Shown: positions 1 to 61,826 of the stretch, one piece after another
Position numbering within the stretch: position 1 is the first letter of the stretch
Layout: each line of letters opens with the position of its first letter
DNA from: Sabellastarte sp. h YS-2021
Taxonomy: Eukaryota > Annelida > Polychaeta > Sabellida > Sabellidae
DNA length: 64,000 bases
Assembly: GCA_964017235.1 (NCBI GenBank)
Contig: OZ024929.1
Location: 59,739,603 to 59,803,602 of the forward strand
Direction of reading: 5' to 3'
Notes under the pieces: generated by a model
Told to the model about the DNA's origin: nothing
Seen by the model: only the letters and a program-made list of their open reading frames with translations
Database searches by the model: none
Made by a program: the position numbers and the translations under genes

Positions 1-690
1 ACATATTTATACGAAATTCTCTAAATGCAATAGTTTTCCAATTACAACTGATTTACTCAATAGTGAGAACTTCAAAGTAGCTATTACTCAGCTATGCAAT
101 GAGCCACAGATCTGAAACTTCACTATGTTTTAGCTGATCCCAAAATAGGTGAATAACATATTGAAACAAAATACTCTAAATGCAATAGTTTCCAAGTTAT
201 AAGCCATTTACTCAACAGTGATAACCTAAAAGTAGCTATTACTCAGCTATGCCATGAGCTACAGGTCTGAAATTTTACTATGTTATAGCTGACCCAAAAG
301 TAGCTGAATAACATATTTATACGAAATTCTCTAAATGCAATAGTTTTGAAGTTATAAACGATTTACTCAACAGTGATAACCTAAAAGTAGCTATTACTCA
401 GCTATGCCATGAGCTACAGGTCTAAAATTTTACTATGTTATAGCTGACCCAAAAGTAGCTGAATAACATATTTATACGAAATTCTCTAAATGCAATAGTT
501 TTTAAGTTACAAGTGATTCTACTCATGATGGAAGTTACTGAAAAGCCCAAAAGTAGCTATTACTCACTTAGCTATTGAGACAGGCACCCAACTTACTCAC
601 CATATTGTAGCTATGAAAAAAGTAGCTGAATAACATATTTTAACAAAATGCTCTAGATGCAACAGTTTTCAAGTTATAAATGATTTTGTG
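1..690. repeat. Tandem array of a ~155-166 bp unit with the TAGCTATTACTCAG motif
   Basis: About four diverged direct copies are visible. Each carries AGTAGCTATTACTCAGCTATG, shown here by its core GTAGCTATTACTCAG (near 78, 232, 386 and 552), followed by a shared stretch ending near TCTCTAAATGCAATAG. Spacing is about 154 bp between the first three copies and about 166 bp to the fourth. Related copies lie at 53,945-54,235 (element I) and 59,705-60,070 (element E2). The array enters the window from the left, so its 5' boundary is not visible. There is no coding signal. Confidence 0.75.
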
Positions 691-1110
691 CATGATTTCA
701 TGAATGTTTATGCATTAAAAATTATTAAAAAAATTTATTAAAAAAAAAGTAAGACAGATCCAGGTCTCATACTCACACAAGAGAATCTACCTGTGGCCTA
801 GTACATATATGCAAGATATGAGAGAAATCCCTGCAATAGTCACTGAGAAAATTGTGATTAAGTGTTGAAATTTTCACACTTTTGGTGGGGGTACCCCCCT
901 TGTAATGTCTCTAGCAAACAGACGAACAGACAGATTTGCATGCCTTGAACAATTTTTCATCCTCGATAGATAAGGTATCTTTTAAAAAAAACAGCACGTC
1001 TCTAGGCCTTGTAGTTTTGGAGGAGAAGTTGTTCACGCGGACGCGTACGCGTACGCCCACGCCGCAGAGTGACGACATAATGCCAGCTGACTGACAAGTC
1101 AGCTGACATA
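691..1110 (+). repeat. 3' tail of a Helentron-like element (family J) with terminal hairpin
   Basis: The tail contains a GC-rich ACGCGTACGCGTACG microsatellite-like run near 1,035-1,055 and then a strong hairpin at 1,081-1,108: arms TGCCAGCTGAC and GTCAGCTGACA around a six-base loop. A separate 12-bp palindrome GGGGGTACCCCC lies at 887-898. Hairpin after a microsatellite is the 3' layout seen in families A and G of this window. Family assignment is by this layout only. Element D1 begins immediately after the hairpin in an A-run. Part of the tail resembles the F1 segment near 13,010-13,090. Confidence 0.5.
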
Positions 1111-1114
1111 AAAA

Positions 1115-2371: not shown

Positions 2372-2469
2372 AACTAGAAATAGGATGCATTGGCATGCGT
2401 AATGTCCACCCAAAGGGAAGCATGAGTTTTGCTTTAAAACTTGGATAAAATTGGCAAGAGTAGATTGGT

Positions 2470-3350
2470 GAGATACCCTGTGGATCGAAAATTTTGACGA
2501 AATCGCTCTATCTCGCACGGTTAAGGAGATAGAAGCAAATTTGTGTTTTTCCATTTTTGGCGAAAATTTGAAAATTCGAAATGGCCGTCATTTTTAAGGG
2601 GATGAAAATTTTTAGAAAATTACACAGAGTAGTTTGCTGAGATACCCTGTGGGTGGAAAATTTCTACGAAATCGCTCTATCTCGCACGGTTAAGAAGCTA
2701 GAAGCAAATTTGCGGTTTTCCATTTTTGGCAAAAATTCGAAAAATTCTCGGGAGAGTAAAATTTTTTGAAAATTGCCAACAGGACATTGCTTACCTACTA
2801 TGTGGATCGAAAATTTCGACGAAATGGCTCTATCTGGCACGGTTAAGGAGATAGAACCAAATTTGCATTGTTCCATTTTTGGCAAAAATTCGAAAATTCA
2901 AAATGACCGCCATTTTTCGGGAGAGGAAAATTTTTTGAAAATTACATTTGTACTTTTTTCAGATACCCTGTGGGTTGAAAATTTCGACGAAATCGCTCTA
3001 TCTCGCACGGTTAAGGAGTTAGAAGCAAATTTGCGTTTTTCCATTTTTGGCAAAAATTCGAAAATTCAAAATGGCCGCCATTTTTGAAGAGAGAAAATTT
3101 TTTTGAAAATTGACAATAGTACACTGCTTAGATCCCCTTTGGCTAAAAAATTTCGACAAAATCGCTCTATCTCGCACGGTTAAGGAGATAGAGGCAAATT
3201 TGTGCTTTTGCATTTTTGGCAAAAATTCAAAATGGCCACCATTTTTGGGGAGAGTAAAAGTTTTTGAAAATTGCCAAGTGTACATTACTTTGATACCCTG
3301 TGGGTCGAAAAGTTCGATGAAATCGCTCTATCTCGCACGGTTTTAGGAGA
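2470..3350 (+). repeat. 169-bp satellite array (five to six units)
   Basis: Direct repeats whose landmarks are GAAATCGCTCTATCTCGCAC, GGTTAAGGAGATAGAAGC and the dyad AAAATGGCCGCCATTTT. Unit length measured in the cleaner array at 47-49 kb is 169 bp. Because 169 is not a multiple of three, the short open frames seen on both strands restart in each unit and are not a polyprotein. Confidence 0.85.
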
Positions 3351-4082
3351 TAGACATATTTATGTTTCTGGCTGTGTAGCTATTACTCAGGAGATTAAAG
3401 CTTTTACCATCAACAACAATACCAAGCAAGCAATTGACGCTTTTAACCTTCACACCAAAATTTAAAAAGATGAGTTAAATATGTTTCCTTTAAAAGAGTG
3501 AAAACAGAAATGCAATTCAGAGTAGGCTCAAACTAGAAATAGGACGCCCTGTTGAGAGTAGCTGCGACATATGAATAGAAACACGATAGCATAGAAGAAC
3601 ACACATTATCATGTGTAATGTCCACCCCATGAACCTTTTGCCAAAATTGTACAGTAGTCTTACAAGACTCTGTTTCATTAATTTTGTAAAATAGATCAAT
3701 GATGCTTAAATATTTATTAGTGTACATGTAAATTATTTCAGCTTCATGCCTTTTGCATTGGTTCGGTCGAAAATTTTGACGAAATCACTCTATCTTGCAC
3801 GGTTAAGAAGATAGAAGGAAATTTCTGTTTTTCTATTTTTGGCAAAAATTTGAAAATTCAAAATGGCCGCCATTTTTGGGAAGAGGAAAATTTTTTGAAA
3901 ATTGCCAAGAGTACATTTCTTAGATACCCTATGGGTCGAAAATTTCAACGAAATAACTCTATTTTGCACGGTTAAGGCAAATTTGTGTTTTTTCCATTTT
4001 GGGCAAAAATTCGAAAATTCAAAATGGCCGCCACATGTGGGGAGCGGAAAATTTTTTGAAAATTGCCAAGAGTACATTTCTT

Positions 4083-4962
4083 CATGGCATCAAGGGATTT
4101 TTGGATCTCAAAATATAGGAATATAGGAAATTATCTAACGAAAATATAGGAGGTTTTGAGCAAATTATAGGAGATCTAATACCCTATTTCACTCATCAAT
4201 CTGATGAGAAATGCATGCTTTTTTAATATTATGGCCTCCTCCACCCCTTACAGCCATCGTTACCTCCTTTTTATTACAACTCTTATGAGATAAACACTTA
4301 GAGAAACACTGTTCAAGTGCATACTTTTGTGATAAGTTCACAAATTGATAGTTTATTATTGATCCTAGAAGTTTGCAATGTGAAACCAACTTGAAGGATA
4401 TTGTGGGCTGGGAATCTTCTGATGTCAGATTTGACCTTTGGCCCCTCCTTCAAGGTCAAATGATGGTTCACTGGCTTTGGTGAGTTGTCTTTCCGGTGGA
4501 TACAGATTTGCATTGGTTCTCCGATGCATAGGTCTAGTTAAAGTTGCCAATATAAATACAGGACTGATCATTTGTACTGTATTTATGCTGGAAGCATAGC
4601 TAAAGGTAGCACACATTACATGTATGGTACCTTATGGGTAAATCTAGCTACCAGTATTACATAAGTGAATCATCAAACATGAAGGGAAATACTGGTTAGC
4701 AATGAAGTTGAACACAAGACAAGCTATATTATGATCAGATATGCTGCATAGCAGCAAAAATTTTATCTGATATTGTTGCGGGAGTTGCTGTTTTGACACG
4801 GGGATACACAGCTCTAGAAATATAGGACACAATTCCTTAAAATATAGGAAATACAGGAGAATTTATGCAAAATATAGGAATTTTTTCCTTCCCTCTAAAA
4901 TATAGGATGTGAGCCTGAAATACAGGAGAATATAGGAAATATAGGATTACCTTGACGCCATG
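4083..4962. mobile_element. TIR DNA transposon (MITE-like) with TTTCTT target duplication
   Basis: The ends are inverted repeats, CATGGCATCAAGG at left and CCTTGACGCCATG at right (12 of 13 match). They are flanked by TTTCTT at 4,077-4,082 and at 4,963-4,968. Without the element the 169-bp satellite reads on smoothly (ACATTTCTTAGATACC), as in other units. Both subterminal zones are rich in AAATATAGGA and its variants, which could be transposase-binding repeats. A reversed fragment of family H lies inside. I cannot name the superfamily: a 6-bp duplication is known for Dada-type elements among others, but no transposase is present. Confidence 0.7.
4383..4558 (-). repeat. 5' fragment of a family H element, reverse orientation
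   Basis: Read on the minus strand, this starts AACTAGACCTATGCATCGG and continues to TGTATCCACCGG, the partner of the H1 3' hairpin (GTATCCAC / GTGGATAC at 51,315-51,343). It then runs into one diverged H unit with AAGGTCAAATCTGAC. It is cut off inside the surrounding TIR element. Confidence 0.55.
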
Positions 4963-5935: not shown

Positions 5936-6708
5936 TCACTCATCTATGAAGCAATTCCCCCCAAAAGCAATCCCATACAGGCTATTAACCCAATGAACCT
6001 CCATCCCAAATTTCAGAAAGCTAGGCTGAATAGCATTCCTTAAAATGTCTGGAAACCAAAGAGATACTCAAAAGTAGCAAAGTAGCTATTACTCAGTTAG
6101 CTATAGAGCTATCATCACCAAAAGCAATCCCATACAAGCTATTAACCCAATAAACCTGCATGCCAAATTTGGTAAAGATAGGATAAGAACTGTTGCCTAA
6201 AATGTCTGGAAACCAAGTGTGACGCCGGACGCTGGAAAAAGCAAAAATAATATGTCCACCCCCTAGTGGGGTGGACATAATTAGCAAAGCAGCTATTACT
6301 CAGATAGCTACAAAGCTATCATCAACCAAAAGCTATCCTGGCCAAACTATTGACCAATTATCCTTCATATAATTTTTGTGAAGATAGAAAACATTGTTTC
6401 ATTAAAATGTCCAGAAAAAGTCAACTCAAAATAGCATAATAGCTATATAGCACAGTAGCTATTACTCAGTTAGCTATAAAGGTATTTTCACTAAAAGCAA
6501 TCCCAAGCAAGCTACTGATCCAATAATCCTCCAGCCCAAATTTTGTGAAGATAGGTGAAATATTTTTCCTTTAAAATGCTTAAAATAAAAAAGCTACTCA
6601 AAGTAGCTAAGTAGCTATTACTCAGTGAGTTACATAGCTATTATCACTAAAAGCAATCCCAAGCAAGCTATTGACCTAACTATTGCTCATACCAAATTTG
6701 GTAAAGAT

Positions 6709-7181: not shown

Positions 7182-7448
7182 GTAAAGATATGTCAAATAT
7201 TTTTCCTTAAAATGCCCGGAAACAAAAGAAGTATACAAAAGTAGCTAAGTAGCTATTCCTCAGTTAGCTTTAGAGCTATCTTCACCAAAAGCAATCCCAT
7301 GCAAGCTATTAACCCAAAAAAACACTCATATCAAATTTGGTAAAGATAAGATCAATACTTTTCCTTGATATGACCGGAAACCAAGTGTGACGTCGGATGC
7401 CAGAAAAAGCAAAAATAATATGTCCACCCCACTGGCGGGGTGGACATA

Positions 7449-8037: not shown

Positions 8038-8140
8038 CTTGCCTGTCCATTGGATAGGGTATTAACTTATAAAAATTTAATTTACTTCTTAAATTTGCAA
8101 TTTTATTGCATTAATACCTCCTATCCAATGAACAATTGCT
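8038..8140. repeat. Internal complementary region of DIRS-A
   Basis: Contains two back-to-back versions of the element terminus, CCATTGGATAGGGTATTAA and TTAATACCTCCTATCCAATG, in opposite orientation around an AT-rich centre. A patch complementary to both ends is the hallmark of DIRS elements, where it is thought to guide formation of a circular intermediate. The same layout is clearer in the second DIRS element at 14,107-14,203. Confidence 0.6.
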
Positions 8141-8299
8141 GAATAACTACCGCTTGGTAGGCGGGTAAGGTACTAGGGACTCAAGTGAACTTATAAACAG
8201 AACAAAACTGAGAAGGCCCGGTTTGACCTAGGGTCAGAGAACCCTGTAAGGTCAAGGTCGGCTACCACTAACCTGTTACCCGGAAGTCTACCAACATTG

Positions 8300-8319
8300 C
8301 CCCCCCCCCCCCCCCCCCC
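8300..8319. repeat. Poly-C tract (20 bp)
   Basis: Uninterrupted C run inside DIRS-A. A shorter C run occupies the comparable place in DIRS-B near 62,051. Length is uncertain because homopolymers are prone to assembly error. Confidence 0.8.
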
Positions 8320-9855
8320 TTCTCAGACCTGCTCTGAGAATAGGAAGAGAGGGTTGAGTTCAGTCCCATAAGAAATAAACTTCCCAAAGGAAGCAAGTCA
8401 CAGTTTGTCTTTTTACTTAAGTATTATATGCAAATATACACCATATGTACATATATACATAATTACATATCTCCTCATTTTTGGGTTTGGTGGTGGACCT
8501 ATGACCTGCTGAGCAGCTACCACTGGGCCCAAATGAAAAAGCTTTGTATCAGCCCAAGCCACATCCTTCAAATAGAACTGTGTGAAGGTGTTATGGGATT
8601 TCCAGTGGCAGGCTGACAAAATTTGCTCTAAGGAGACCCCCGACCTTAGAGGCAGGCTCTGACACCATTGGGCTTTAACCTGATGCAGTGTGAGGGCCTC
8701 CTGATCACAGAGCTCATAACATAGGATCACAGTCTGCTTGATCCATGAGGAGATGGTGGCAGGTGAGATGTCCTTATCAAAACCTTTCTTGAAGGAAACA
8801 AAGATTAACTCCTTATTCTGCCTAAGATCTGAGGTCCTGTCCAAGTAATAGCGAAGGGCTCTGACTGGACATAGGGACCTGTCACCCTTGAGTGACTTAT
8901 CCAGAGTGGGGGCCAGGGCTGGTATGACCAGTGGGACCACACTATCTGGACCCTCCTTAGCCAGCTGGTTCTTGGATAGAAAGCTGGGTGAGGGGTACAA
9001 GGACACCTTAGACAAGTCTAACTGGTGTCTGATGTTTTTATGTAACCAAGCATGGATCTGACTCCTGCGTTTACCAGAACACAGGGCCAGGAGAAAAACA
9101 GTCTTGAAAGTCAAGTGTTTTAGTGAGGCCTCTTTTAAGGGTTCAAAGGGAGCCTTTGTCAGCTGGTGCAGAACCAGTGAGAGGTTCCAGGAGGGAATGC
9201 CCCTCCTGCCCTTGGGTCTGTCTCTGTGGAAACTATCCAGGAGACGGGTGAGATTCTCATCTTTGCTGACATTAATGGGGGAGTTGCCCAACTTGTCAGC
9301 AATGGCTGATCTGTAGCCATCAATGGTACCTGGCTATAACTTTCTGTCCTGAAACACGTACAGAAGGAAGTCAGCTGTGGCTTTCAGAGGTGGTGCCCTG
9401 AAGTCCACCTGATTACTGAGGCACCACCTTGTAAAAATGGTCCACTATGCCTCATAGACGGATAGGGTTGATCCTCTTTGAGGAGCCTCAATTCGTGCTG
9501 CCACTGCCTCAGAGAAGCCCTGTTCCTTGATTGTTGTGGCTCTAGAAGCCAGGCATGAAGGTTCAGGTTTGACAGGTTCTTGTGTAGGGTCTGGTTGAAT
9601 GGCTGAGTTACCACATTGGGCAGGTTGGGTAGGCACAGTGGGATCTGACTGGATATGTCCACTAGGTCCCAGAAACAGGGCATGTTGGGCCAACCCGGTG
9701 CAATCAGAACTAGAAAAATATTTTTGCTGACAAAAACGAAGCGACCCTGATCAAAAAGTGCGAAGTAATCTGTAAAAGATGTCAAGATATGCATGATAAG
9801 GAATAGAAAATGTAAAGTTTATTGCATTGTGTATGTTACTATATTTAACAGAAAT

Positions 9856-42617: not shown

Positions 42618-42621
42618 AAAA
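42618..42621 (+). other. Empty D-element target site (AAAA)
   Basis: E1 reads TTTCAGAGAAAACTGCGTGA here. In E2 the same sequence is split by D3 after TTTCAGAGAAAA (60,174) and resumes at AAAAACTGCGTGA (61,762). Confidence 0.85.
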
Positions 42622-46548: not shown

Positions 46549-46588
<40 letters not shown>

Positions 46589-46634
46589 GACGGACCTGAA
46601 TCCAATATATCCCCGACTTTCGTCTGGGGATATA
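42898..46634 (+). mobile_element. Helentron-like element, family A copy 2 (A2)
   Basis: Same ends as A1: AACTAGATTGGGCCAACTCG at 42,898, (GGC)n at 46,551-46,586, and the hairpin TATATCCCC...GGGGATATA at 46,606-46,634. Core units of ~350 bp lie at 44,580-46,380. A LINE fragment is inserted at 43,728-44,163; without it the length is about 3.3 kb, like A1. The first ~800 bp are nearly identical to A1 apart from short indels, so the two copies are young. Confidence 0.8.
43728..44163 (-). mobile_element. Short LINE 3' fragment inserted in A2
   Basis: A1 reads GTTGGGACTACAGCATAAAT without a break; in A2, 436 bp separate GTTGGGACT from ACAGCATAAAT. The minus strand encodes a LINE C-terminal zinc-knuckle-like block (ERTCKLCKKDVEDEIHFVCV, near 44,080-44,140) and ends with TTTATTATAGTGACATGT, like the LINE at 26,446. 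The target duplication is at most 2-3 bp. It is a strongly 5'-truncated retrotransposition. Confidence 0.8.
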
Positions 46635-46989
46635 ATAAACAAAAAATAATAGAATTTGGATAGGATAAATCAAGAAATAGAATAAAACTAATAGAATCAA
46701 AACTAAATCTGATGTATCCACCAGAAAAGGCCAACTAACATAGTTTAGAAGATAAACAGCATTTTTCAATAACTAGAAATAGGACGCCCTGTTGATAGTA
46801 GCTGCGACATATGAATAGAAACAGGATAGCATAGGAGAACACACATTATCATGTGTAATGTCCACCCCATGAACCTTTTGCCAAAATTGTACAGTAGTCT
46901 TACAAGACCCTGTTTCATTTGTAAAATATATCAATGATGCTTAAATATTTATTAGTGTACATGTAAATTATTTCAGCTTCATGCCTTTT

Positions 46990-49250
46990 TGCATTGGTTG
47001 GGTCGAAAATTTTGACAAAATCACTCTATCTTGCACGGTTAAGAAGATAGAAGCAAATTTCTGTTTTTCTATTTTTGGCAAAAATTTGAAAATTCAAAAT
47101 AGCCGCCATTTTTGGGAAAAGGAAATTTTTTTGAAAATTGCCAAGAGTACATTTCTTAGATACCCTATGGGTCGTAAATTTCAACGAAATAACTCTATTT
47201 TGCACAGTTAAGGCAAATATGTGTTTTTTTCCATTTTGGGCAAAAATTCGAAAATTCAAAATGGCTGCCATATGTGGGGAGGGGAAAATTTACATTGTTC
47301 AGATACCCTGTGGGTCGAAAATTTCGACGAAATCCTTCTATCTCACACGGTTAAGGAGATAGAAGCAATTTAGTGTTTTGCCATTTTTGGGAAAAATTCG
47401 AAAATTCAAAATGGCTGCCATTTTTGGGAAGGGGAAAATTTTTTTGAAAATTGCCAACAGTACATTGGTCAGATACCCTATTGCTTGATAATTTCAACGA
47501 AATCGCTCTATCTCGCACGGTTAAGGTGATAGAAGCAAATTCGTGTTTTGCCATTTTTGGCAAAAATTCGAAAATTCAAAATGGTCGCCATTTTTGGGGA
47601 GGGGAAATTTTTTTGAAAATTGCTAAGAGTGCATTTCTGAGATAACCTGTGGGTCGAAAATTTCGACGAAATCGCTCTATTTCGCATGGTTAAGGAGATA
47701 GAAGCAATTTTGTGTTTTGCCATTTTTGGCAAAAATTCGAAAATTCAAAATGGCCGCCATTTTGGGGGAGGGCAAATTTTTTTAAAAATTCGCAAGAGTA
47801 CAATGCTCAGATACCCTATGGGTCGAAAATTTTGACGAAATCGCTCTATCTCGCATGGTTAAGGAGATAGAAGCAAATTTGTGCTTTGCCATTTTTGGCA
47901 AAAATTCCAAAATTCAAAATGGCCGCCATTTTTGGGGAGGGGAAAATTTTTTGAAAATTGCAAAGAGTACATTCCTTAGATAACCTGTGGGTCGAAAATT
48001 TCGACGAAATCGCTCTATTTCGCATGGTTAAGGAGATAGAAGCAATTTTGTGTTTTGCCATTTTTGGCAAAAATTCGAAAATTCAAAATGGCCGCCATTT
48101 TTGGGGAGGGGAAAATTTTTTAAAAATTGGCAAGAGTACAATGCTCAAGTACCCTGTGGGTCGAAACATTTGACGAAATCGCTCTATCTCGCACGGTTAA
48201 GGAGATAGAAGGAAATTTGTGTTTTGCCATTTTGGGCAAATATTCGAAAATTCAAATTGGCCGCCAATTTTGAGAAGGGGAAAATTTTTTGAAAATTGCA
48301 AAGAGTACATTCCTTAGATACCCTCTGGGTCGAAAATTTTGACGAAATCGCTCTATCTCGCACGGTTAAGGAGATAGAAGGAAATTTGTGTTTTGCCATT
48401 TTGGGCAAATATTCGAAAATTCAAATTGGCCGCCAATTTTGAGAAGGGGAAAATTTTTTGAAAATTGCAAAGAGTACATTCCTTAGATACCCTCTGGGTC
48501 GAAAATTTTGACGAAATCGCTCTATCTCGCACGGTTAAGGAGATAGAAGCAAATTTGTGTTTTGCCATTTTTGGCAAAAATTCGAAAAATCAAAATGGCC
48601 GCCATTTTTGGGGATGGGAAAATTTTTTGAAAATTGCAAAGAGTACATTCCTTAGATACTCTGTGGGTTGAAAATTTCGACGAAATCGCTCTATCTCGCA
48701 CGGTTAAGTAGATAGAAGCAAATTTGTGTTTTGCCATTTTTGGCAAAAATTTGAAAATTCAAAATGGCCGCCATTTTTGGGGAGGGCAAATTTTTTTAAA
48801 AATTGCCAAGAGTACAATGCTCAGATACCCTATGGGTCGAATATTTTGACGAAATCGCTCTATCTCGCATGGTTAAGGAGATAGAAGCAAATTTGTGCTT
48901 TGCCATTTTTGGCAAAAATTCGAAAATTCAAAATGGCCGCCATTTTTGGGGAGGGGAAAATTTTTTGAAAATTGCAAAGAGTACATTCCTTAGATACCCT
49001 GTGAGTTGAAAATTTTGACGAAATCGCTCTATCTCGCACGGTTAAGGAGATAGAAGCAAATTCGTGTTTTGCCATTTTTGGCAAAAATTCGAAAATTCAA
49101 AATGGCCGCCATTTTTGGGGAGGGGAAAATTTTTGGAAAATTGCAAAGAGTACATTCCTTAGATACCCTGTGGGTCGAAAATTTCGACAAAATCGCTCTA
49201 TCTCGCACGGTTAAGGAGATAGAAGCAAATTTGTGTTTTTCAGTATTCAA
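46990..49250 (+). repeat. 169-bp satellite array, best-preserved copy (about 13 units)
   Basis: Repeating frames on the minus strand start at 48,408, 48,577 and 48,746, exactly 169 bp apart, and others are multiples of 169 away. Units 48,180-48,348 and 48,349-48,517 appear identical, evidence of a recent single-unit duplication. Each unit carries AAAATGGCCGCCATTTT or a close variant. Confidence 0.9.
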
Positions 49251-49283
49251 AATAGCCAATTACTCATTTATTTAATTAATTAC

Positions 49284-49435
49284 AAAGTCAAAGTTGGGGT
49301 TTAACGTCCCGTTCAACAGCCAGGGTCATATTGGGACAGGTCCTCAGCATTGCCACTTGTGGGACTCGAACCCACAGAGGTGACAGCCTATGATTAGATG
49401 CCAAACTTGCTAACCACTAGGCCACTGAGGACCTC
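49284..49435 (-). mobile_element. tRNA-derived SINE with 13-bp target duplication
   Basis: On the minus strand the head has a perfect 7-bp acceptor-like pair GTCCTCA / TGAGGAC, A box TGGCCTAGTGGTTAGC and B box GGGTTCGAGTCCC. Spacing between the boxes suggests a class II (long variable arm) tRNA ancestor. The tail contains GGACGTTAAACCCCAAC. TTTAATTAATTAC flanks it on both sides (49,271-49,283 and 49,436-49,448). B2 has the empty site at 5,923-5,935. The full, precise duplication suggests a fairly young insertion. Internal boxes would direct RNA polymerase III. Confidence 0.9.
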
Positions 49436-49771
49436 TTTAATTAATTACTCACTCATCTATGAAGCAATTCCCCCCAAAAGCAATCCCATACAAGCTATTA
49501 ACCCAATGAACCTCCATACCAAATTTCAGAAAGCTAGGCTTAATAGCATTCCTTAAAATGTCTGGAAACCAAAGAGCTACTCAAAAGTAGCAAAGTAGCT
49601 ATTACTCAGTTAGCTATAGAGCTATCATCACCAAAAGCAATCCCATACAAGCTATTAACCCAATAAACCTGCATGCCAAATTTGGTAAAGATAGGATAAG
49701 AACTGTTGCCTAAAATGTCTGGAAACCAAGTGGGACGCCGGACGCCGGAAAAAGCAAAAATAATATGTCCA

Positions 49772-51346
49772 GATAATAATAAGCAAGTTGAAAGCACTTT
49801 TAAGTTTGGCTGCCCTCATTTGACCTCGAAGCAGAGGCCCAAGGTCAAATCTGACCACATCAGAAGATGTGCAGCCCATGACTTCCTATAGTTTGGTTTC
49901 ACATTGCAAACCTCTAGGACCAATAATAAGTGAGTTATAAGCACTTTTAAGTTTGGCTATCCTCATTTGACCTTGAAGGAGGGGCCCAAGGTCAAATCTG
50001 ACCACATCAAAAGATTCGCAGCCCATGATTTCCTATAAGTTGTTTTCATATTGCAAACCTGTGGGACCAATAATAAGCGAGTTATAAGCACTTTTAAGTT
50101 TGGCTATCCTCGTTTGACCTTGAAGGAGAGGTCCAAGGTCAAATCTGACCACATCAGAAGATTTCTATCCCATGATTTCCCATAAGTTGGTTTCACATTG
50201 CTAACCTCTAGGGCCCATAATAAGCGAGTTATAAACACTTTTAAGTTTGGCTATCCTCGTTTCACCTTGAACGAGAGGCCCAAGGTCAAATCTGACCACA
50301 CCAAACGATTCCCAGCCCATGATTTCCTATAGGTTGGTTTACCATCCCAAACCTCTAGGACCAATAATAAGCGAGTTATAAGCACTTTTAAGTTTGACTA
50401 TCCTCGTTTGACCTTGAAGGAGGAGCCCAAGGTCAAATCCAACCACACCAAAAGATTCCCAGCCCATGATTTCCTATATGTTGGTTTACCATCCCAAACT
50501 TGTAGGACCAATAATAAGCGAGTTATAAGCACTTTTAAGTTTGGCTATCCTTGTTTGACCTTAAAGGAGGGGCCCAAGGTCAAATCTGACCACATCAGAA
50601 AACTCACAGCCCATGATTTCCTATAGGTTGGTTTACCATCCCAAACCTCTAGGACCAATAATAAGCAAGTTATAAACACTTTTAAGTTTGGCTATCCTCG
50701 TTTGACCTTGAAGGGGGGGCCCAAGGTCAAATCCGAACACACCAGAAGATTCCCAGCCCATGATTTCTTATAGATTGGTTTACCATCCCAAATCTCTAGG
50801 ACCAATAATAAACAAGTTGTAAGCACTTTTAAGTTTGCCTATCCTCGTTTGACCTTGAAGGGGTGGCCCAAGGTCAAATCCGACCACACCAGAAGATTCG
50901 CAGCCCATGATTTCCTATAGGTTGGTTAGACATTCCAAACCTCTAGGACAAATGATGAGGGAGATATAAGTACTTTTTATGACTGAAAAGAAACGCCCGT
51001 GGTGGCCATCTTGTTTTTCAAAATGAGGCCAAAAATATTTTCAGTCAAGACTTTGTAATGATGAACATATCCTGCAAATTTGAGATCTCTACCTATAATT
51101 CCCTTTGTTCTAGAGGGCCAACAAAACTCCTTGCTGAAAGTCGAAAAACGCCCGTGGCGGCCATCATGTTTTTCAAAATGAGGCCAAAAATATTTTATGG
51201 TTATGAATATAACCTGAAAATTTGAGAAGTCTACCTATAATACCCTGGCCTCTAGAGGGGTAACGAGAAAATCTCTACACACTGCGGTGGCGGCATACTC
51301 ATGCGTAATCCATAGTATCCACAGGATGCTATCCGGTGGATACAAT
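49772..51346 (+). mobile_element. Helentron-like element, family H copy 1 (H1), 5' truncated
   Basis: The core is eight units of 147 bp (AAGCACTTTTAAGTTTGGCT at 49,792, 49,939, 50,086 and 50,233). Each holds GTTTGACCTTGAAGGAGGGG, CCAAGGTCAAATC and AGCGAGTTATAAGC. After the array come two diverged units with ACGCCCGTGG(T/C)GGCCATC and a 3' hairpin at 51,315-51,343 (GTATCCAC / GTGGATAC), followed by AATTA. The 5' end of this family is visible only in the reversed fragment at 4,383-4,558. Confidence 0.7.
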
Positions 51347-51535
51347 TATACACCAATACTTCATAACTTGAATATATGGCGCATCTTCCTTCATACATTT
51401 TTCACTTCAAGGTGACCTGACCCTGAAGTTATCACACTCACAGGCAGCACAATAACCTTATGTATGTACAGTAACCTGTGGAATAACTGACCTTAGTTTA
51501 TATTTGCAACACAATCATTATCACAAACTAGAAAA
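51347..51535. other. Spacer with no recognised feature
   Basis: AT-rich sequence between the H1 hairpin and F2. Nothing assigned. Confidence 0.4.
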
Positions 51536-53892
51536 ATGTTTTTGCTGACAAAAACGAAGCGGCCCTGATGAAAAAGTGCGAAGTAATCTGTAAAAGATGT
51601 CAAGATATGCATGATAAGGAATAGAAAATGTAAAGTTTATTGCATTGTGTATGTTACTATATTTAACAAATGAAAGAACGACCACAGCTTGGCAGAAGAG
51701 AAATTGTAGGTGTCATTCAGATGTCTATGGTCCGATTGATGAGAAAATCCTTTCCGACCTTCTAAATTTGGTGTAGAATGTACGTGATAAATTTTATAGC
51801 ACATGTGTGTGCACTTTTTCCCAAAACGTGATGACCGGTTTTTATGAAAAATGCTCAAGGTTATGGAAAAATAACATATTTGAACAAAATGCTCTAAACA
51901 CAAGACTTTTCAAGTTATAAGTGATTTAGTGCATGATCTGAGGAATATTAATGCATTAAAATTTCCAAAATTCATTTCCAACTTGAGCTTAATTTTATTA
52001 AATGTACAAAATGGAAGAAAGTAAAAGAAAAGAATACACATTCTAAAGAACAGCATAAACAGCTTGACGTTTTTGTTTCCATGAAGTGCACACACACATA
52101 TATTTATATCTCTATCTATCATCCAAACCACACTAATACCCACTCTCCCTCCATCCACCCCCCACCCCCCACATATAGAGGCAAATATTTTTTTCACCTG
52201 CATGTTAGTGCACTAAAGGAGAATTTCCAAAATTCATTTCCAACTTGATCTTAATTTTATTAAATGTACAAGTGTCACACAAAATGGAAGAAAGTAAAAG
52301 AAAACAATACACATTCTAAAGAACAGCATAAACAGCTAGACTTTTTGGTTTCCATGAAGTGCACACACACATATATTTATATCTCTATCTATCATCTAAA
52401 CCACACTAATACCCACTCTCCCTCCATCCACCCCCCACATATAGAGGCAAATCTTTTTTCACCTGCATGTTAGTGCACTAAAGGAGAGTTGGGGGGGTTC
52501 TTTCTGGTTAGAAAGACTTTCCATGAATTTAACTCTAGATAGATATCACACCAAAGCAAATACAGAGTTTGAGGAGGAAGCAGAAAGAGACAACTCATTC
52601 ATTTCCACTTTAAGTTGGAGCTACATAAAATACTGTACAAGAAAAACTGTTTATGAGAGAGTGCTTTTTTTACAGTCATCTTATATTCTGAAAGAAGTCA
52701 AGTCTATAAATTTGACCAATTTACATAGTCTATGTGAACAAGTGAATTTCGAACAAGTACCTACATCCTCAACTTCTTCTGCAAAAGAAAAGTTGAATAA
52801 ATAGAAGCTTTTTTCCAAAAAGAAAAAGTTATATCCCCACAATTCCAACACTGATCAGTTGCAATATGTTAATAACCACATCAGTGGATCATAAATACCT
52901 CATTTTTGTCTTTGAAGATGTCATAACATCATAAACACTAAGAGATTAGGTTTGCCAGATAGCATAAATATTTTTTAAGTATACATATGCCAGGTGAGGT
53001 TTTAAAAAGTGTTAAAATAAATGAGGAGGGAGGAAGAAGTATATATTTATCATGTAAAGATGGGCAAAGGCTCTTAAGTACAGGAATTTTAAGTGAAACG
53101 TTATACAAAATCTTACTTAAGTATAATCAATGTCAAGTTAAAGTGAGCATAAATATTTTTGAAGTATACATATGCCAGGTGTGGTTTTAAAAAGTGCTAA
53201 AATAAATGAGGAGGGAGCAAGAAGTATATATTTATCGTGTTAAGACGGCCAAAGCCTCTTAAGTACAGGAATTTTAAGTGAAATGTTATACAAAGTGTTA
53301 CTTAAGTATAATCAATGTCAAGTTAAACTGATGTTACTGAACAGTTAATCAGTTAGGGGCGGAAAACCCTCATTTTCACGTCAAGATGGCCATGACTGTA
53401 CTTGTATTGGAACTCCAAGGTGGAAAGCAAATAAGAATGTCCCTATTGTCATCTTTAAAAGTGTAGAAAATTTAACCGAGCATAAAGTTTAGCTCAGGTC
53501 AGTTGAACAATAAGATAGCTGGAGGCTGAAACTTCCTTTTTCACTGTAAGGTGACCATAACTTCATTCATATTGCAACTTTAAGGTGACCATAATATGAG
53601 AACGTCCCTTCAATATCAATATATGTTAGATATGGAAAAAGAAAGGAGCCAGACGGCTTTACTGCTATATTAACAGTTTAAGGTCACCATAAAGTCAGGA
53701 TAACCCTTTGGTTTGCCATTCTTTATAGGTGTGCAAAGTTTAACTGAGGTCAGTCGAACAATAAGATACTTGGAGGCTGAAAACCTCCTTATTTCAGTTT
53801 AAGGTGGCTACAACTCCATTCCTACTGAGAGTTTAAGGTGACCATAAGTATTATTTTTATCTAGTTTAATACCAGTGATAATTTCGATATAA
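51536..53892 (+). mobile_element. Helentron-like element, family F copy 2 (F2)
   Basis: Begins AACTAGAAAAATGTTTTTGC with CGAAGCGGCCCTGATGA. It matches F1 through 51,705, then continues with the part equivalent to 12,845-13,853 and 19,318-20,610 of F1. It contains neither DIRS-2 nor the SINE, so it supplies the empty sites for both. It ends near element I without a visible hairpin; the 53,650-53,890 stretch has AAGGTGACCATAA repeats. Confidence 0.7.
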
Positions 53893-54320
53893 AACTAGAC
53901 CAAGGACGCATCTGTGGCCAGATGCAAAATGTATTCACCAGCAAAGGCAAAAGTAGCTATTACTCGGCTATGCCACGAGCTGGAGGTCTGAAATTTTATT
54001 ATGTTATAGCTGACCCAAAAGTAGGTGAATAACAGATTTGCACCAAATTCTCTAAATGCAATAGTTTTCAAGTTACAAGTGATTTTACTCATGATGGAAG
54101 TTAGTGAAAAGTCCAAAAGTAGGTATTACTCACTTAGCTATTGAGATAGACACCCAAGTTACTGACCATGTTGTTGCTATGGAAAAAGTAGATGAATAAC
54201 ATATTTTAACAAAATGCTGTAAATGCAATACTTTTCTAGTTAACGCTCGACAATAGGAGAGGGTTATTGTGATCAGTTTGTTTCTGTCTGTCTGTCTGTG
54301 CACCGTTTCACCCTTATAAC
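53893..54320 (+). repeat. Element I 5' part with a hairpin and TAGCTATTACTC units
   Basis: Starts AACTAGACCAAGGACGC and carries a small palindrome GCATCTGTGGCCAGATGC at about 53,908-53,925. Two units of the 155-166 bp repeat (as at 1-690) follow. It ends in GTCTGTCTGTCTGTG near 54,283-54,300, where an hAT MITE begins. The 3' end is unknown. Confidence 0.5.
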
Positions 54321-54714: not shown

Positions 54715-57477
54715 GAAATAGGACGGTTGGGTCGAAAATTTTGACGGTTAATCTTGCACGGTTAAGGAGATAAGGAAATTTTTGTTTTTCCATTTTTTTT
54801 TTCATTTCTTACATACCCTGTGGGTCGAAAATTTCGACGAAATCGCTCTATCTCGCACGGTTTAGGAGATAGAAGCAATTTTGTGTTTTGCCATTTTAGG
54901 CAAAAATTCGAAAATTCAAAATGGCCGCCATTTTTGGGGAGGGGAAAATTTTTTGAAAATTGCCAAAAGTACATTCCTTAGATACCCTGTGGGTAAAAAA
55001 TTTCGACGAAATCGCTCTATCTCGCACGGTTAAGGACATAGAAGCAATTTTGTGTTTTGCCATTTTTGGCAAAAATTCGAAAATTCAAAAAGGCCACCAT
55101 TTTTGGGGAGGGGAAAATTTTTTGAAAATTGCCAAGAGTACATTCCTTATATACCCTGTGGGTTGAAAATTCCGACGAAATCGCTCTATCTCGCACGGTT
55201 TAGGAGATAGAAGCAATTTTGTGTTTTTCCATTTCAGGCGAAAATTCGAAAATTCAAAATGGCCGCCATTTTTGGGGAGGGGAAAATTTTTTGAAAATTG
55301 CCAAGAGTACATTTCTGAGATACCTGTGGGTTGAAAATTTCGACGAAATCGCTCTATCTCGCACGGTTAAGGAGATAGAAGCAATTTTGTGTTTTTCCAT
55401 TTTTAGTAAAAATTTGAAAATTCAAAATGGCTGCCATTTTTGGGAAGGGGAAATTTTTTTGAAAATTGGCAAGACTACATTCCTTAAATACCTTGTGGGT
55501 CGAAAATTTTGACGAAATCGCTCTATCTCGCACGGTTAAGGAGATAGAAGCAAATTTGTGTTTTGCCATTTTTGGCAAAAATTCAAAAAGGCCGCCATTT
55601 TTGGGGAGGGGAAAATTTTTTGAAAATTGCAAGAGTACATTCCTTAGATACTCTGTGGGTTGAATATTCTGACGAAATCGCTCTATCTCGCACGGTTTAG
55701 GAGATAGAAGCAATTTTGTGTTTTTCCATTTTTGGCCAAAATTCGAAAATTCAAAATGGCCGCCATTTTTGGGAAGGGGAAAATTTTTTGAAAATTGGCA
55801 AGACTACATTCCTTAGATACCCTGTGGGTCGAAAATTTTGACGAAATCGCTCTATCTCGCACGGTTAAGGGGATAGAAGCAATTTTGTGTTTTGCCATTT
55901 TGGGCAAAAATTCAAAATGGCCGCCATTTTTGGGGAGGGGAAAATTTTTTGAAAATTGCCAAGAGTACATTCCTTAGATACCTTCTGGGTCGAAAATTTC
56001 AACGAAATCTCTCTATCTCGCACAGTTAAGGAGATAGAAGGAATTTTGTGTTTTTCCATTTTTGGCAAAAATTCGAAAATTCAAAATGGCCGCCATTTTT
56101 GAAAAGGGGAAAATTTTTTTGAAAATTGGCAAGAGTACATTTCTTAGATACCCCATGGGTCGAAAATTTCGACGAAATCGCTCTATCTCGCACGGTTAAG
56201 GAGATAGAAGGAATTTTGTGTTTTGCCGTTTTTGGCAAAAATTCGAAAATTCAAAATGGCCGCCATTTTTGGAGAGGGGAAAATTTTTTGAAAATTGCCA
56301 AAAGTACATTTCTTAGATACCCTGTGGGTCAAAAATTTCGACGAAATCGCTCTATCTGGCACGGTTAAGGAGATAGAAGCAATTTTGTGTTTTTCCATTT
56401 TTGGCAAAAATTCGAAAATGGCCGCCATTTTTGAGGAGGGGAAAATTTTTTGAAAATTGGCAAGAGTACACTTCTTATATACCCTGTGGGTCGAAAATTT
56501 CGACGAAATCGCTCTATCTCGCACGGTTAAGGAGATACAAGCAATTTTGTGTTTTTCCATTTTTGGCCAAAATTCGAAAATTCAAAATGACCGCCATTTT
56601 TGGGGAGGGGAAAATTTTTTGAAAAATCCAAAGAGTACGCTCCTTACAAACCCTGGGGGTCGAAAATTTCGACGAAATCGCTCTATCTCGCACGGTTAAG
56701 GAGATACAAGCAATTTTGTGTTTTTCCATTTTTGGCCAAAATTCGAAAATTCAAAATGACCGCCATTTTTGGGGAGGGGAAAATTTTTTGAAAAATCCAA
56801 AGAGTACGCTCCTTACAAACCCTGTGGGTCGAAAATTTCGACAAAATCGCTCTATCTCGCACCGTTAAGGAGATACAAGCAATTTTGTGTTTTTCCATTT
56901 TTGGCCAAAATTCGAAAATTCAAAATGGCCGCCATTTTTGGGGAGGGGAAAATTTTTTGAAAAATCCAAAGAGTACGCTCCTTAGAAACCCTGGGGGTCG
57001 AAAATTTCGACGAAAACGCTCTATCTCGCACCGTTTCTGAGATAAACACGTTTTTGTTTTTTCATTTTTCAAGAAAAATCGAGACATTTAGTAAATTATT
57101 AATAAGTCGGCCATTTTGTATTGGATCACTTCGAAAAGTTATTGATTTCCAGACATGTATATAACGAACCTACTTGCAAAATTTCATGTGAATAGGTGAA
57201 GCACCTTTTACGTTATCATCCAGACAAGCACACCCTTTTGAAAAACATGTTTTTGGTCATGTGACCTTCTCTGATTGGTTGAAAAACATGCAATGAGGAA
57301 AAATGATAGTCCTCTACCCAAGGAAGCTCCATACCAAATTTCAAAGAAATCGGTGCAGTAGTTTCTGAGGAGAAGAGGCTGGAAAAAATTGTTGACAAAA
57401 ACAACAACAACTACAACAACAACAACGAAGACGACGCCAGGCCATGCCATCAGCTTACGGCCGTTGGCCAGTAAGCT
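54715..57477 (+). mobile_element. Helentron-like element, family G, with 169-bp satellite core
   Basis: About 14 units of the 169-bp satellite (54,720-57,060), then a unique tail, a (CAA)n-like stretch at 57,398-57,424, and a terminal hairpin at 57,452-57,477 (AGCTTACGGCC / GGCCAGTAAGCT). The tail matches 35,940-36,250. The start is AAATAGAAATAGGACGG, resembling a shortened family B start, so the 5' end may be truncated or recombined. Units near 56,510 and 56,679 are almost identical. Confidence 0.6.
54720..57060 (+). repeat. 169-bp satellite array of element G
   Basis: Same unit as in B1-B3, with more AAGCAATTTTGTG variants and, toward the right end, ATCCAAAGAGTACGCTCCTT in place of ATTGCCAAGAGTACATTCCT. 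The last unit changes from GGTTAAGGAGATA to CCGTTTCTGAGATAAACACG. Confidence 0.9.
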
Positions 57478-57480: not shown

Positions 57481-58200
57481 AATGGAAAAAAAAGGAGCCA
57501 GAGGATTTTATTCCAATTTGATGACTTTAAACAGGCCATATGTCCATCAACATTTTGAGTTTTATGGTCACCATAAAGTCAGGATATTCCTTTGGTAAAT
57601 CGTAATATATGTGGCAAGTTTGGCTGAAAAAAGTGAAAAACTAAGTGAACTGGAGGGCTAAAACCCCCTTTTTTGACATTAAGGCGACCTAGGCGACCTT
57701 AAGATTGCAGATACAGGGCTAAAACTTCGCCATGTGAAAGATTATCAAAAAGTAGCTGAATAAGCTATTCCAACAAAACGCCGAAATCCTCACCGTTTTT
57801 GAGATACAGACCAAGTACGCATTTTAAAAAAAATTTACGAAAATAAAACGTCTCCCATTCAGGCATCTATGGCCCGATTGATGAGAAAATCCTTTCCGAC
57901 CTTGGAAATTTGGTCTAGAATGTATGTGATAAATTTTATAGCACAGGTGTGTGTGCTTTTTTCCGAAACGCGATGACGGGGTGTTTTGGAGTTATGCTTA
58001 AGGTTACCTTAAGTAAAGCTTAAGGTCTGCGCAAAGTATCCCAAAAAATTTTCCCGCGCCTATAGTTTTAAAGAAAGGTAACAAGGAAAGAAAAATATGA
58101 AAGGCTAAGAAGTTATTCAAGGGAGACCATAATCCTGTGGCGGCGGTGATCAGTCGAACTTCGGTGAAAACAAATAAGCGTCCCTCACGGGCAGCTTAAT
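57481..58200 (+). mobile_element. Family F copy 3 (F3): 3' part with terminal hairpin
   Basis: Matches F1 from about 20,570 (AAAGGAGCCAGA) to 21,220 and then continues past the point where F1 is cut. It shows TGATCAGTCGAACTTCG, complementary to the F 5' motif CGAAGCGACCCTGATCA, and a hairpin AAGCGTCCC...GGGCAGCTT at 58,176-58,197. It abuts the G hairpin at its left. Confidence 0.65.
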
Positions 58201-59132
58201 TAGTGTAATCACCACATGTACATAAGATAGGTTCCACATGATTTAATATAAATTGACCAATCTTAAACTGATATAACTTGTTTTGCAAAGACACAGGTGT
58301 ACTTAGACATATTTAAATTAAGGCAAACTTTCATGTCAAGATAACCTGTTACTTCTATCTGGATACCCTTTTCAGTGAACACAGCTTACACACAACAGAC
58401 AGAAAAGCCATCATTGTAGTATCCAGCTGTGTGTTTAAGTTGCTAGCCTTATTCTTACACAAAATTAAAATGCAATTGAACTAGACAATATACACCACAC
58501 CATTGTCAAAACTGCCTTCTTACACAACCTTATTTATTTAAATATATGCATCATCAGCAAATTATTAGAGCGTAACTGAATATACCTGTTACTCTGAGAA
58601 TAAAAACTTGTAACATGTAATTATGTGGATAGGAAAGTTTTTTCAGAGCTTTATGATTTGGTATGTAACAGCTTAGTTATCAGCCAATTATTGAGAAAGA
58701 ACAGCCTTTCAAGAAGACTATGAAATTGTGTCCACTGTATTAAATGTTTCATTATCTTCCCCATCACATAAAATCTTCCCTAGTTTGTACAACTGCACTA
58801 AAATGTGGAGATTCATGCAGATGATGCACATTGTTACTTTACAGTTTTATTCATCCGTTAATATATGATACAACCAAATGAAAAAATAGTATTATTATGT
58901 TCAAATTATTTTTGTTTTTTGCCAATATTGGTTTGCCATGATATTTCATGTTCTTAGTATTACTTTTCCATAATATTGTAGATCCACAAATGTCACGACC
59001 AGCCTAATAGTAATATTTTTTTTAATGTTGCAAACAAAAGTATATAATTTATATAGTTACATGAATTTAGACAGTGAGGACTGACAAGTAAAGGTCATAT
59101 GCTGCCTCACATGGACTCGATCTTAATATAGA
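58201..59132. other. AT-rich sequence with no recognised feature
   Basis: About 930 bp without repeats shared elsewhere in the window, ORFs or RNA signals that I can support. It is the longest unexplained single-copy-looking stretch in the right half. Confidence 0.4.
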
Positions 59133-59465
59133 GTCCATGGTCAACCATGAATACTTAATTGCAGTTCACGGTCAACCATGGACCAGAGGACAGAGTCCAT
59201 TGTCAACCATGGACCAGAGAACAAAGTCCATGGTCAACCATGGACACTTGAATGTAGTCCATGGTCAATCATGGACAACTAGACTGAGTCCATGGTCTAA
59301 CATGGACGCTTACATGCAGTCCATGTTCAGGACATGAAAAACCATCATGTCCATGGTTTTTGATGGTCTGGTCCTTCATACGAGTATAGATTTTGATGGT
59401 CGTTCATGAATATCCATGGTCGACCATCAAATACCATGCAGTCCATGGTCATTCATGGTCACCAT
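59133..59465. repeat. Array of 20-nt palindromes at 31-bp spacing
   Basis: The consensus GTCCATGGTCAACCATGGAC is a 9-bp stem with a 2-nt centre. Copies start at 59,133, 59,164, 59,195, 59,226, 59,257, 59,288 and 59,319, exactly 31 bp apart, with 11-nt spacers that differ from copy to copy. Beyond 59,349 are looser copies (GTCCATGGTTTTTGATGG, CATGGTCGACCATC and others) to about 59,465. Stem changes are partly balanced by changes on the other arm. It abuts element E2. No coding sense is likely. Confidence 0.9.
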
Positions 59466-61826
59466 TTCGCCGGGGTACTCTTCTACTACCCTATGGGTCA
59501 AAAATTCGCTCGAAATCGCTCTATCTCTTACGGTTTTGGGGTTATTCACACTTTTTCATTTTCCGCTAAAATCCAAGATGGCCAACAAAAGTGGCGAAAA
59601 TTGAAATTTTTCCCCTTGGCATAGGATACTCTTATACTACTCTGTGGATCAAAAATTCGCTCGAAATTGCTCTATCTCTTAACGGTTTTTGAGATATTTG
59701 TGATTTTTCACATTTTCACTAAAAGTAGCGATAAAGTAGCCATTACTCACTTGTACATTGAGCAACAGTTGTGAAACTTAAATATGTTACAGTTCACAAA
59801 AAAGTAGATGAACAACATATTTGAGAGAAATTATGTAGCTGCAATACTTTTGAAGATACAAGCCATTTACTCATTATGGTTATCATTAAAAATTAACAAA
59901 GTAGCTATTACTCACTTAGCTATGGAGATACACTTCTAAACTACTGACCATGTTGTAGCTGTGGAGAAAGTAGCTGAACAACATATTGCAACAAAATACT
60001 CTAAATGCAATAGTTTGAGAGTTATAAATCATATAATCATATTAGGTAAAAGTGCTATTACTCACTCAAAAGTAGGCCAAAGTTCACCAAACCCTAAAAA
60101 TATTGAGGAGCGTAAAAATTCATTAGGACAAGTAATTTACCAAAAATGTGTAACTGTAGTAGTTTCAGAGAAAATAGCATCAGAGATGCCCGTAACCCAC
60201 AGCCTAGGGAAATATTTTGAACACTATGAGATATAGAAGTACTGTATCAGTACAAAGTTCAGGATACTTTCAGAGCACTGTCAATTATATAAAGGTCCAA
60301 ACAATGTTTAAATAGAGAAAATAATGTCTAATAGAAAGATAATGCATGTAAAAATGAAGTATTAAAACAAGATAATTCAATAACAATATGACAGCATTAA
60401 TCAGTAAACTAAAATTACAACACTCTTTATCTACATCTGCATGGCCGAATTATGGTTTAGATGTTTTGTATATTACCATGCATACAGAAGTGGTAATACA
60501 TTCAATGAATGCTTATATGTGGTGTTAGAGCAAAATCTGTGGCTCACTTGATGAAATTCCATCTGTTACAGTGGGAAGTTATAAACGTAAAATTCTTAAT
60601 AAATTCTAATATTACTTTAACAGTGCTTAATCTGCATCAAAAACAGACCCAAAGGTGCAACAAGATTTTAAAGGTCAAGGTCACTACGACAAGGTCAAAG
60701 TTCAAATTAAGGTCACACCATGATAATGCACACCTATAACCCCTAACCAATGTCCCTACCAAATATCAACTTCCTACACCTTACGGTTTTCGAGATATAG
60801 CCCGAACAAGATTTTATAGGTCAAGGTCACTACGGCAAGGTCAAAGGTCAAATCAAGGTCAGACCATGATGTTGCACACCTACACCCCCTAACCAATGTC
60901 CCTACATAGTATCAACTTCCTACACCTTACAGTTTTCGAGATATAGCCCGGACAAGATTTTATAGGTCAAGGTCACTACAGCAAGGTCAAAGGTCAAATC
61001 AAGGTCAGACCATGACGTTGCACACCTACACCCCCTAACCAATGTCCCTACCAAATATCAACTTCCTACACCTTTCAGTTTCCGAGATATAGCCCGGACA
61101 AGATTTTATAGGTCAAGGTCACTACGGAAAGGTCAAAGGTCAAATCAAGGTCACACCATGACATTGCACAACTACATCCCCTAACCAATGTTCCTACCAA
61201 ATATCAACTTCCTACACCTTACGGTTTCCGAGATATAGCCCGGACAAGATTTTCAAACTCAAGGTCACTACGGCAAGGTCAAAGGTCAAATCAAGGTCAG
61301 ACCATGACGTTGCACACCTACACCCCCTAACCAATGTCCCTACCAAATATCAACTTCCTACACCTTTCAGTTTCCGAGATATAGCCCGGACAAGATTTTA
61401 TAGGTCAAGGTCACTACGGAAAGGTCAAAGGTCAAATCAAGGTCACACCATGACATTGCACAACTACATCCCCTAACCAATGTTCCTACCAAATATCAAC
61501 TTCCTACACCTTACGGTTTCCGAGATATAGCCCAGACAAGATTTTCAAACTCAAGGTCACTACGGGAAGGTCAAAGGTCAAATCAAGGTCAGACCATGAC
61601 GTTGCACACCTACACATCCTAACCAATGTCCCTACCAAGTATCAACTTCCTACACCTTACGGTTTCTGAGATACAGCCCGGACAAACTTTTTCCCGCCAC
61701 CTGCCCATCATGACACCATGGGTGAAAACAATACCCTGACAGCCTTTAAGGTCTGTGGAGTAAAAACTGCGTGACCCACGCACGCACATACATGGTGTAA
61801 ATTATAATCTCCGGCCCAGCTCGATT
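59466..61826 (+). mobile_element. Helentron-like element, family E copy 2 (E2), split by D3
   Basis: Two ~150-bp units (59,475-59,700), then TAGCTATTACTC-type sequence and a 3' part matching E1 from about 42,540. D3 interrupts at 60,175-61,762. The 3' end reads ATAATCTCCGGCCCAGC and is cut by DIRS-B at about 61,827, before the full hairpin. The 5' end is not visible and the palindrome array lies in its place. Confidence 0.6.
60175..61762 (+). mobile_element. Helentron-like element, family D copy 3 (D3)
   Basis: The 5' end TAGCATCAGAGATGCCCGTA is followed by ACCCACAGCC. The 3' hairpin at 61,732-61,762 is imperfect (TACCCTGACAGCC / GGTCTGTGGAGTA). About seven ~146-bp units lie between 60,660 and 61,700; two-unit blocks repeat (about 291 bp), showing recent expansion. 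The insertion is in an AAAA tract of E2 and the empty site is at 42,618-42,621. Each unit has AGGTCAAGGTCA, AGGTCAAAGGTCA and TCAAGGTCAGACC. Confidence 0.8.

Follow-up and report, generated by a model that had tools for sequence, protein, structure and literature searches.

In the Helitron2 group of Bao and Jurka (PMC3627910, 2013), the 5' asymmetric terminal inverted repeat (ATIR) is located 0–2 bp from the 5' end within a 5' hairpin, and the 3'-ATIR is located 20–30 bp from the 3' end, before a further hairpin. Helentrons and HINEs possess subterminal inverted repeats (subTIRs) of approximately 11–15 bp (PMC4067079, 2014), and in the Cg_HINE elements of the oyster the left flank is built from a subTIR, a complementary repeat and a microsatellite, the right flank from a subTIR and a palindrome (PMC7492417, 2020). 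We analyzed a stretch of 64,000 nucleotides (the window) from the sabellid annelid Sabellastarte sp. h YS-2021, corresponding to positions 59,739,603–59,803,602 of contig OZ024929.1 (C3) of assembly GCA_964017235.1, a genome of 1.786 Gb in 647 contigs. An initial annotation, made from the letters of the window alone, had described at least eight repeat families sharing one end design and regarded them as non-autonomous Helentron-like elements. This identity holds: the families are very probably HINEs, that is non-autonomous Helentrons of the Helitron2 group of rolling-circle DNA transposons, in view of their ATIR/subTIR ends, their insertion at TT without long duplication, the existence of a coding Rep-Helicase element of the same design (to which we gave the name Hel-TAGG) and a locus, L013, where a decayed Rep is accompanied by a B-type 5' region and an I-type 3' end. 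We describe here the anatomy of these families, their boundaries, one exact insertion and their copy number, together with coding elements of like design. The basic design has already been described in oysters, flies and mites; the families themselves are new.

End design and polarity

Comparison of the window with itself reveals two full copies of family A and copies or pieces of families B, D, E, F, H and I, together with tandem arrays; most of the elements are on the minus strand. For A, B, D, E and H, the window contains the motifs and hairpins that were initially described. In these five families, and in part in F and I, one short sequence occurs at both ends as an exact inverted match of 10–12 bp, namely 12 bp in A, D, H and Hel-TAGG and 10 bp in B and E, just short of the published 11–15 bp, whereas the longest exact match between ends of different families (A, B, D, E, H and Hel-TAGG) does not exceed 8 bp. 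Out of 2000 dinucleotide shuffles of each 3' piece, the observed match was reached by one for A, three for B, ten for E and none for D, H and Hel-TAGG; the within-family match is beyond chance (for B and H the 5' and 3' ends were taken from separate copies). In A, B, D, E and H, 0–1 nt separate the start of the 5'-ATIR from the flanking TT, the exact terminus being fixed for A alone. The 3'-ATIR is found about 18–34 nt from the 3' terminus in five of six families and about 87 nt from it in B, distances that depend on the counting of flanking Ts; despite its position, the 3'-ATIR of B is directly followed by the hairpin. The small 3' hairpins stand out against base shuffles (15 of 500 for A, 1 for B, 6 for D, 7 for F, 2 for H and 11 for Hel-TAGG), that of I being weak (28 of 500). 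With a slash marking the element boundary, the terminal letters are CTAG in A, B, F, H and I, GCTA/T(n) in D and CTTG/T in E. Of the end design as first proposed, the boundaries hold in other copies; D and E depart from the common CTAG end, and the assigned orientation has to be reversed.

Indeed, the initial reading had placed the 5' end at ACTAGA and viewed the hairpin as the classical 3' terminal hairpin of Helitrons, in which such a structure close to the 3' end is well known (PMC3627910). When reverse-complemented, however, the elements fit the anatomy of Helitron2 and of the oyster HINEs, with the hairpin end first and the CTAG end last. Moreover, in all three Hel-TAGG copies with both ends (L014, L015 and L017) the Rep-Helicase frame runs from the ATIR-hairpin end towards the 3'-ATIR lying downstream; the Rep of L013 is directed likewise, and a second small hairpin adjoins the CTAG end. 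The microsatellite reported just before the hairpin is seen in A; with the polarity corrected it comes immediately behind the 5' hairpin, like the microsatellite in the left flanks of oyster HINEs (PMC7492417), a position shown for A. Thus, the former 3' hairpin represents the 5' end and ACTAGA the 3' end (...TCTAG/TT). Since some Helentrons carry their gene reversed (PMC4067079, PMC3627910), the direction of the gene is a strong argument without being a decisive one, and we consider the original polarity improbable. The members mapped in the window are the following, family I being placed at 2374 by its ACTAGA start (no family coordinates had been given initially):

29354–32668, minus: family A, copy 1; 5' hairpin at 32643–32667, then a (CCG)n microsatellite; 350-bp array at 30606–32244
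29381–29391, minus: 3'-ATIR of A copy 1, which ends TCTAG/TT; ends backed by other copies and by the empty site
42900–46633, minus: family A, copy 2; 98.8–99.5% identical to the A copy inside the Rep-Helicase gene on contig C11
3533–6278, minus: family B element; 169-bp array; 5' hairpin at 6253–6277; 3'-ATIR at 3619–3628; CTAG/TT; contains an H 3' end
46773–49771, minus: family B element; 3' end kept (ATIR at 46859–46868); 5' hairpin lost at 49771, the start of an H array
7203–7448, minus: family B 5' end fragment; hairpin at 7421–7446
2374–3367, minus: family I 3' part (our placement); 3'-ATIR at 2403–2412, hairpin, CTAG/TT, B-like 168-bp array; the end region has 60 bp in common with a Rep-bearing locus
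1115–2149, minus: family D element; 5' hairpin at 2119–2149; 146-bp array; 3'-ATIR at 1133–1144; 3' hairpin GCATC-TCT-GATGC; end GCTA/TTTT
24628–25603, minus: family D element; 5' hairpin shortened and decayed
60175–61762, minus: family D element; mismatches in both ends
39487–42694, minus: family E element; 5' hairpin at 42666–42694; 3'-ATIR at 39509–39518; end CTTG/TT; 151-bp array in two pieces split by about 1.2 kb of other sequence
49775–51343, minus: family H 5' part; hairpin at 51315–51343, 147-bp array; without 3' end
4493–4537, plus: family H 3' end; ATIR CCGGTGGATAC, hairpin, TCTAG/TT
9710–9850, minus: family F 3' end; ATIR AGGGTCGCTT, CTAG/TT
51528–51668, minus: family F 3' end, copy 2
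58176–58197, minus: candidate decayed family F 5' hairpin, then AATTA

The 3' end of F is clear (9710 and 51528) and its sole 5' candidate (58176) is decayed, which makes this family a weak case.

Boundaries, insertion site and copy number

Copies for the analysis of boundaries were drawn from top-scoring or near-perfect matches; conservation within the query is therefore partly selected, the outer flanks being free of this effect. The ends coincide in other copies. In ten copies of A that are perfect at both ends, TTA precedes the hairpin and TT follows CTAG in 10/10. The 3' end of B, in the 20 best full-length of 40 matches, window copy included, reads CTAG in 19 and CTAA in one, with TT next in 20/20 and divergence thereafter; at its 5' end (20 of 40 matches, window copy left out) ATTA precedes in 20/20, partly by selection as ATTA lies within the query. 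Among the plus-strand places in 100 matches listed, the 3' end is CTAG/TT in 8/8 copies of H and GCTA/TTTTT, with five or more T, in 10/10 copies of D.

The insertion itself can be read at L012 on C11, the fourth gene of the Hel-TAGG type (98.5% identical in protein over its longest piece), which is interrupted by a copy of family A. The empty site is GTTTATTTTGG in the three uninterrupted relatives L014, L015 and L017, and the filled site in L012 is GTTTATT/ATATCCCC ... CCAATCTAG/TTTTGG, the 3' junction being TCTAG/TTTTGG. Family A thus inserted at TT, with a net gain outside the element of two T at this one exact empty site; there is accordingly no long target duplication, which would have pointed to another class of transposon.

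Pattern searches across the genome, allowing up to 3 mismatches and with the reversed pattern as control, yielded 8,255 3' ends and 8,862 5' ends for A, and 870 3' ends for H, 22,958 for D, 9,521 for E and 9,787 for B, together with 4,437 Hel-TAGG 5' hairpins; the control gave 0 in each case. The five window families add up to 51,391 3' ends, an average of 1.84 per 64 kb. Since the window holds nine of them, it is a HINE-rich stretch. Of 97 A 5' ends (perfect matches, the first listed on C1), 76 have a same-strand 3' end downstream within 5 kb, none has one on the opposite strand and 7 have one upstream on the same strand; within 15 kb 86 of the 97 are paired, at a median of 3.27 kb. Such ordered pairing, and the conservation of the ends throughout the genome, are difficult to reconcile with satellite arrays spread by recombination or with cut-and-paste movement of the kind known from miniature inverted-repeat transposable elements, the terminal repeats being incidental. 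The satellite-like cores and short motifs could be read in this sense, but the empty site displays no duplication beyond two T, and we regard this possibility as very unlikely. Derivation from canonical Helitron1 elements (5' TC, 3' CTRR, insertion between A and T) is hardly credible either, for although the CTAG ends of A, B, F, H and I fit CTRR, those of D and E do not, the 5' ends are A, T or G and not TC, insertion takes place at TT and not between A and T, and 5' ATIR hairpins are present.

HINEs are also found directly behind one another's ends: at L078 a B element is inserted right after the T-run of a D end, and an A copy at C1:2,672,384 (L093) sits just after an H-like 3' end. Element ends can therefore be landing sites. 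On C2, between 106,607,322 and 106,681,665, 14 E 3' ends among the matches listed lie in one direction, with 12 of 13 spacings of 4.0–5.4 kb and four of exactly 4,762 bp. Rolling-circle concatemers are not the explanation, as the E end runs into other sequence and not into a 5' hairpin; the series is a tandem array of a larger E-containing unit.

Coding elements and the search for partners

Hel-TAGG contains an open frame of 2245 amino acids which, scanned in two pieces, matches DUF6570, Helitron_like_N, PIF1 and Exo_endo_phos. Its end design is like that of the window families, with an ATIR hairpin upstream and a 3'-ATIR downstream in three of four fetched copies, and it carries GTCC-type microsatellites. 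Three Hel-TAGG coding copies show two 5' hairpins about 600–770 bp apart (L033, at 1616 and 2216; L035/L036 and L041 alike), and many of the hairpins among 100 perfect matches listed come in pairs with a spacing of about 430–780 bp.

Coding partners for the window families were sought at 24 loci with Helitron_like_N matches, nine of which were read over 14.5–20 kb, four with 5 kb extra downstream and eleven with flanks of about 1.5 kb. One of them, L013, was seen with window-type ends. Upstream it carries a B-type 5' region (90% identity over 252 bp to window 7182–7430) and a 169-bp array; after the array come a Rep with four stops, then the insertion of an array resembling window 53890–54242 and a short remnant of the endonuclease region. 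Downstream, 60 bp of I-type 3' end are found at 93% identity and break off, 12 bp before the I terminus, at the start of a B 5' end. This is close to the subfamily rule for Helentrons and HINEs, i.e. 80% over the last 60 bp (PMC4067079), though without the last bases. For the expectation that Rep-Helicase genes would be flanked by the same hairpins, this one decayed locus with B-type 5' and I-type 3' sequence is a candidate case. A side observation concerns L136 (about 3520–3560; C5 near 143,541,080), where an I-type 3' end, cut in or just after its hairpin, is fused head-to-tail to the inner arm of a B-type 5' end, a junction that might be a product of rolling-circle read-through or of end-to-end insertion.

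Several findings weigh against the Helentron-like reading or limit its reach. Among the 24 loci, none emerged as a coding partner with the ends of A, D, E, F or H, in a search left incomplete by the short flanks of eleven of them. L013 is decayed: its Rep is broken, its outer 5' arm was not seen and its I-type end lacks the terminal 12 bp, and the link that its sequence suggests to B and I comes from this one copy. In Hel-TAGG, the Exo_endo_phos match (E 6.8e-5) is just below the Pfam cut-off, and the fourth copy, L012, has neither of its own ends within the 14.5 kb fetched. As for family E, its 3' hairpin is no better than base shuffles (245 of 500), and TT follows CTTG in two of four fetched copies, the remaining two having one downstream flank in common and being non-independent.

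Other candidates were rejected. The ends of A in H12, of D and H in H09, of F in H16 and of A in H22, near coding loci, are separate insertions and not the ends of those coding elements, and a CTAG/TT after the H09 gene (12317) has no convincing ATIR. Nine coding loci were screened for a generic hairpin with a downstream inverted 10-mer; this gave one weak pair each in H16 and H18, without a CTWG end and judged to be chance, and as the filter also missed the known ends of Hel-TAGG, its negatives carry little weight. Searched with frames of more than 150 amino acids from six coding loci, the window gave a single match of 70 amino acids at 30% identity (36323–36532, E 3.5e-7); its elements appear, from this comparison, to carry no clear Rep-Helicase remains. 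Loci L009–L032 bring together several Helentron-type protein lineages; once the copies of Hel-TAGG are set aside, most of the stretches matched show approximately 25–44% identity to the Hel-TAGG protein.

The window also contains features of other kinds. On the minus strand, a frame with a MADF DNA-binding domain (33821–34825), and not a histone gene, is followed at a distance of about 145 bp by a stem-loop of the kind found in histone 3' UTRs (33630–33676; Rfam Histone3, 40.4 bits). Minus-strand frames at 8085–9707 and 61827–63395 belong to a retroelement-like stretch in two copies, 77% alike, and in the frame at 62800–63885 an RNase-H-type domain (PF13456) is weakly matched, with a score just under the cut-off.

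Proposed termination, tandem cores and comparison with known systems

The nicking step, the termination step and the pairing of proteins with families are parts of the cycle that we only infer. A HINE of this type starts after the target TT with a 5'-ATIR, within 0–1 nt, that pairs with the bases behind it to form a hairpin; a microsatellite (shown for A) and a satellite-like tandem core come next. At the other end the 3'-ATIR, which repeats the 5'-ATIR in inverted form, precedes a small hairpin and then the terminal CTAG, GCTA or CTTG with T after it. A Rep-Helicase supplied from elsewhere would nick the 5' end in its TT context, the strand would be copied out until replication halts on reaching the 3'-ATIR and the terminal hairpin, and the new copy would enter a T-rich site without long target duplication.

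Concerning termination, the authors of Helitron2 propose that ATIR–ATIR pairing undoes the 5' hairpin, and compensatory changes are described in one related pair of elements (PMC3627910). The initial statement that the motif matches the hairpin arms is exact for the outer arm; the inner arm is imperfect in A (one base short), D (one extra base), E and H (differences), and F, with its decayed 5' candidate, is weak. In all four families with an imperfect inner arm (A, D, E and H), the 3'-ATIR reproduces the outer arm exactly (4/4, an observation on few copies), and in B both arms match. Calculated with DNA parameters, the duplex formed by the two ATIRs exceeds the 5' hairpin in stability by 1.6–5.2 kcal/mol in six of six families, bearing in mind that duplex and hairpin are not strictly comparable. 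Regularity of the arms and stabilities fit the published idea, to which an exact ATIR match combined with an imperfect inner arm gives a concrete form as an end-pairing stop of rolling-circle replication. One could tentatively imagine a switch, for which the odds are rather against than for, in which the 5' hairpin is kept weak and is undone by the arriving 3' repeat, ending replication, and in which the private ATIR word of each family separates its termination, and perhaps its choice of Rep, from that of the others. Two points speak against such a switch: in Hel-TAGG, where the hairpin arms match, the 3'-ATIR departs from the outer arm at its first base and extends two bases further, and in the decayed F candidate (ends from different copies) the 3'-ATIR is nearer to the inner than to the outer arm. 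Family E occurs with two versions of the 3'-ATIR; no 5' end was found in the 2.3 kb upstream of four E copies. A separate recognition specificity for each hairpin, as initially suggested, is a plausible conjecture.

The tandem cores had been described as unrelated. No relation to the B/I/E-type arrays or to one another was detected for the arrays of A, D, H and F and the array at 1–525; those of B, I and E, together with the arrays at 35392–35927 and 54803–57069, are related at 61–91% identity. Cores are thus partly common to families with different ends, and some oyster HINE families likewise have related cores (PMC7492417). With no fewer than five HINE families in parallel, of about 870 to 23,000 3' ends each, this genome makes end, core and Rep-Helicase directly comparable.

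Among known systems, the Helitron2 elements resemble the window families in the positions of the ATIRs and the hairpins at both ends; they differ in that the algal examples insert after TTTT, and in that the 3'-ATIR of window family B lies about 87 nt from the end (PMC3627910). The Helitron2-like FoHeli of Fusarium also has terminal ATIRs and hairpins, but its end sequences are others and its target is TNAT/T (PMC5148889, 2016). The Cg_HINE elements of the Pacific oyster (PMC7492417) are alike in flank layout, in a satellite-like tandem core of 140–180 bp, in the TT target and in the presence of several families with unrelated ends, and GTCC-type microsatellites occur in several oyster families as in Hel-TAGG; the genome is a different one and the likeness of the ends is one of layout. 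With coexisting families of different ends and cores already published for oyster, the modular amplification system proposed initially does not amount to a new mechanism. HINE/DINE-1 elements and Helentrons of mite, mosquito and flies share subterminal inverted repeats, a 3' stem-loop, flanking Ts and the lack of a target duplication, and their Rep/Helicase/endonuclease partner corresponds to Hel-TAGG in domain layout (PMC4067079). In mites the subTIRs are palindromic themselves, whereas here the 5' repeat pairs with a separate, often imperfect inner arm; the window families come nearer to the elements of flies, which include an inner inverted repeat (PMC4067079).

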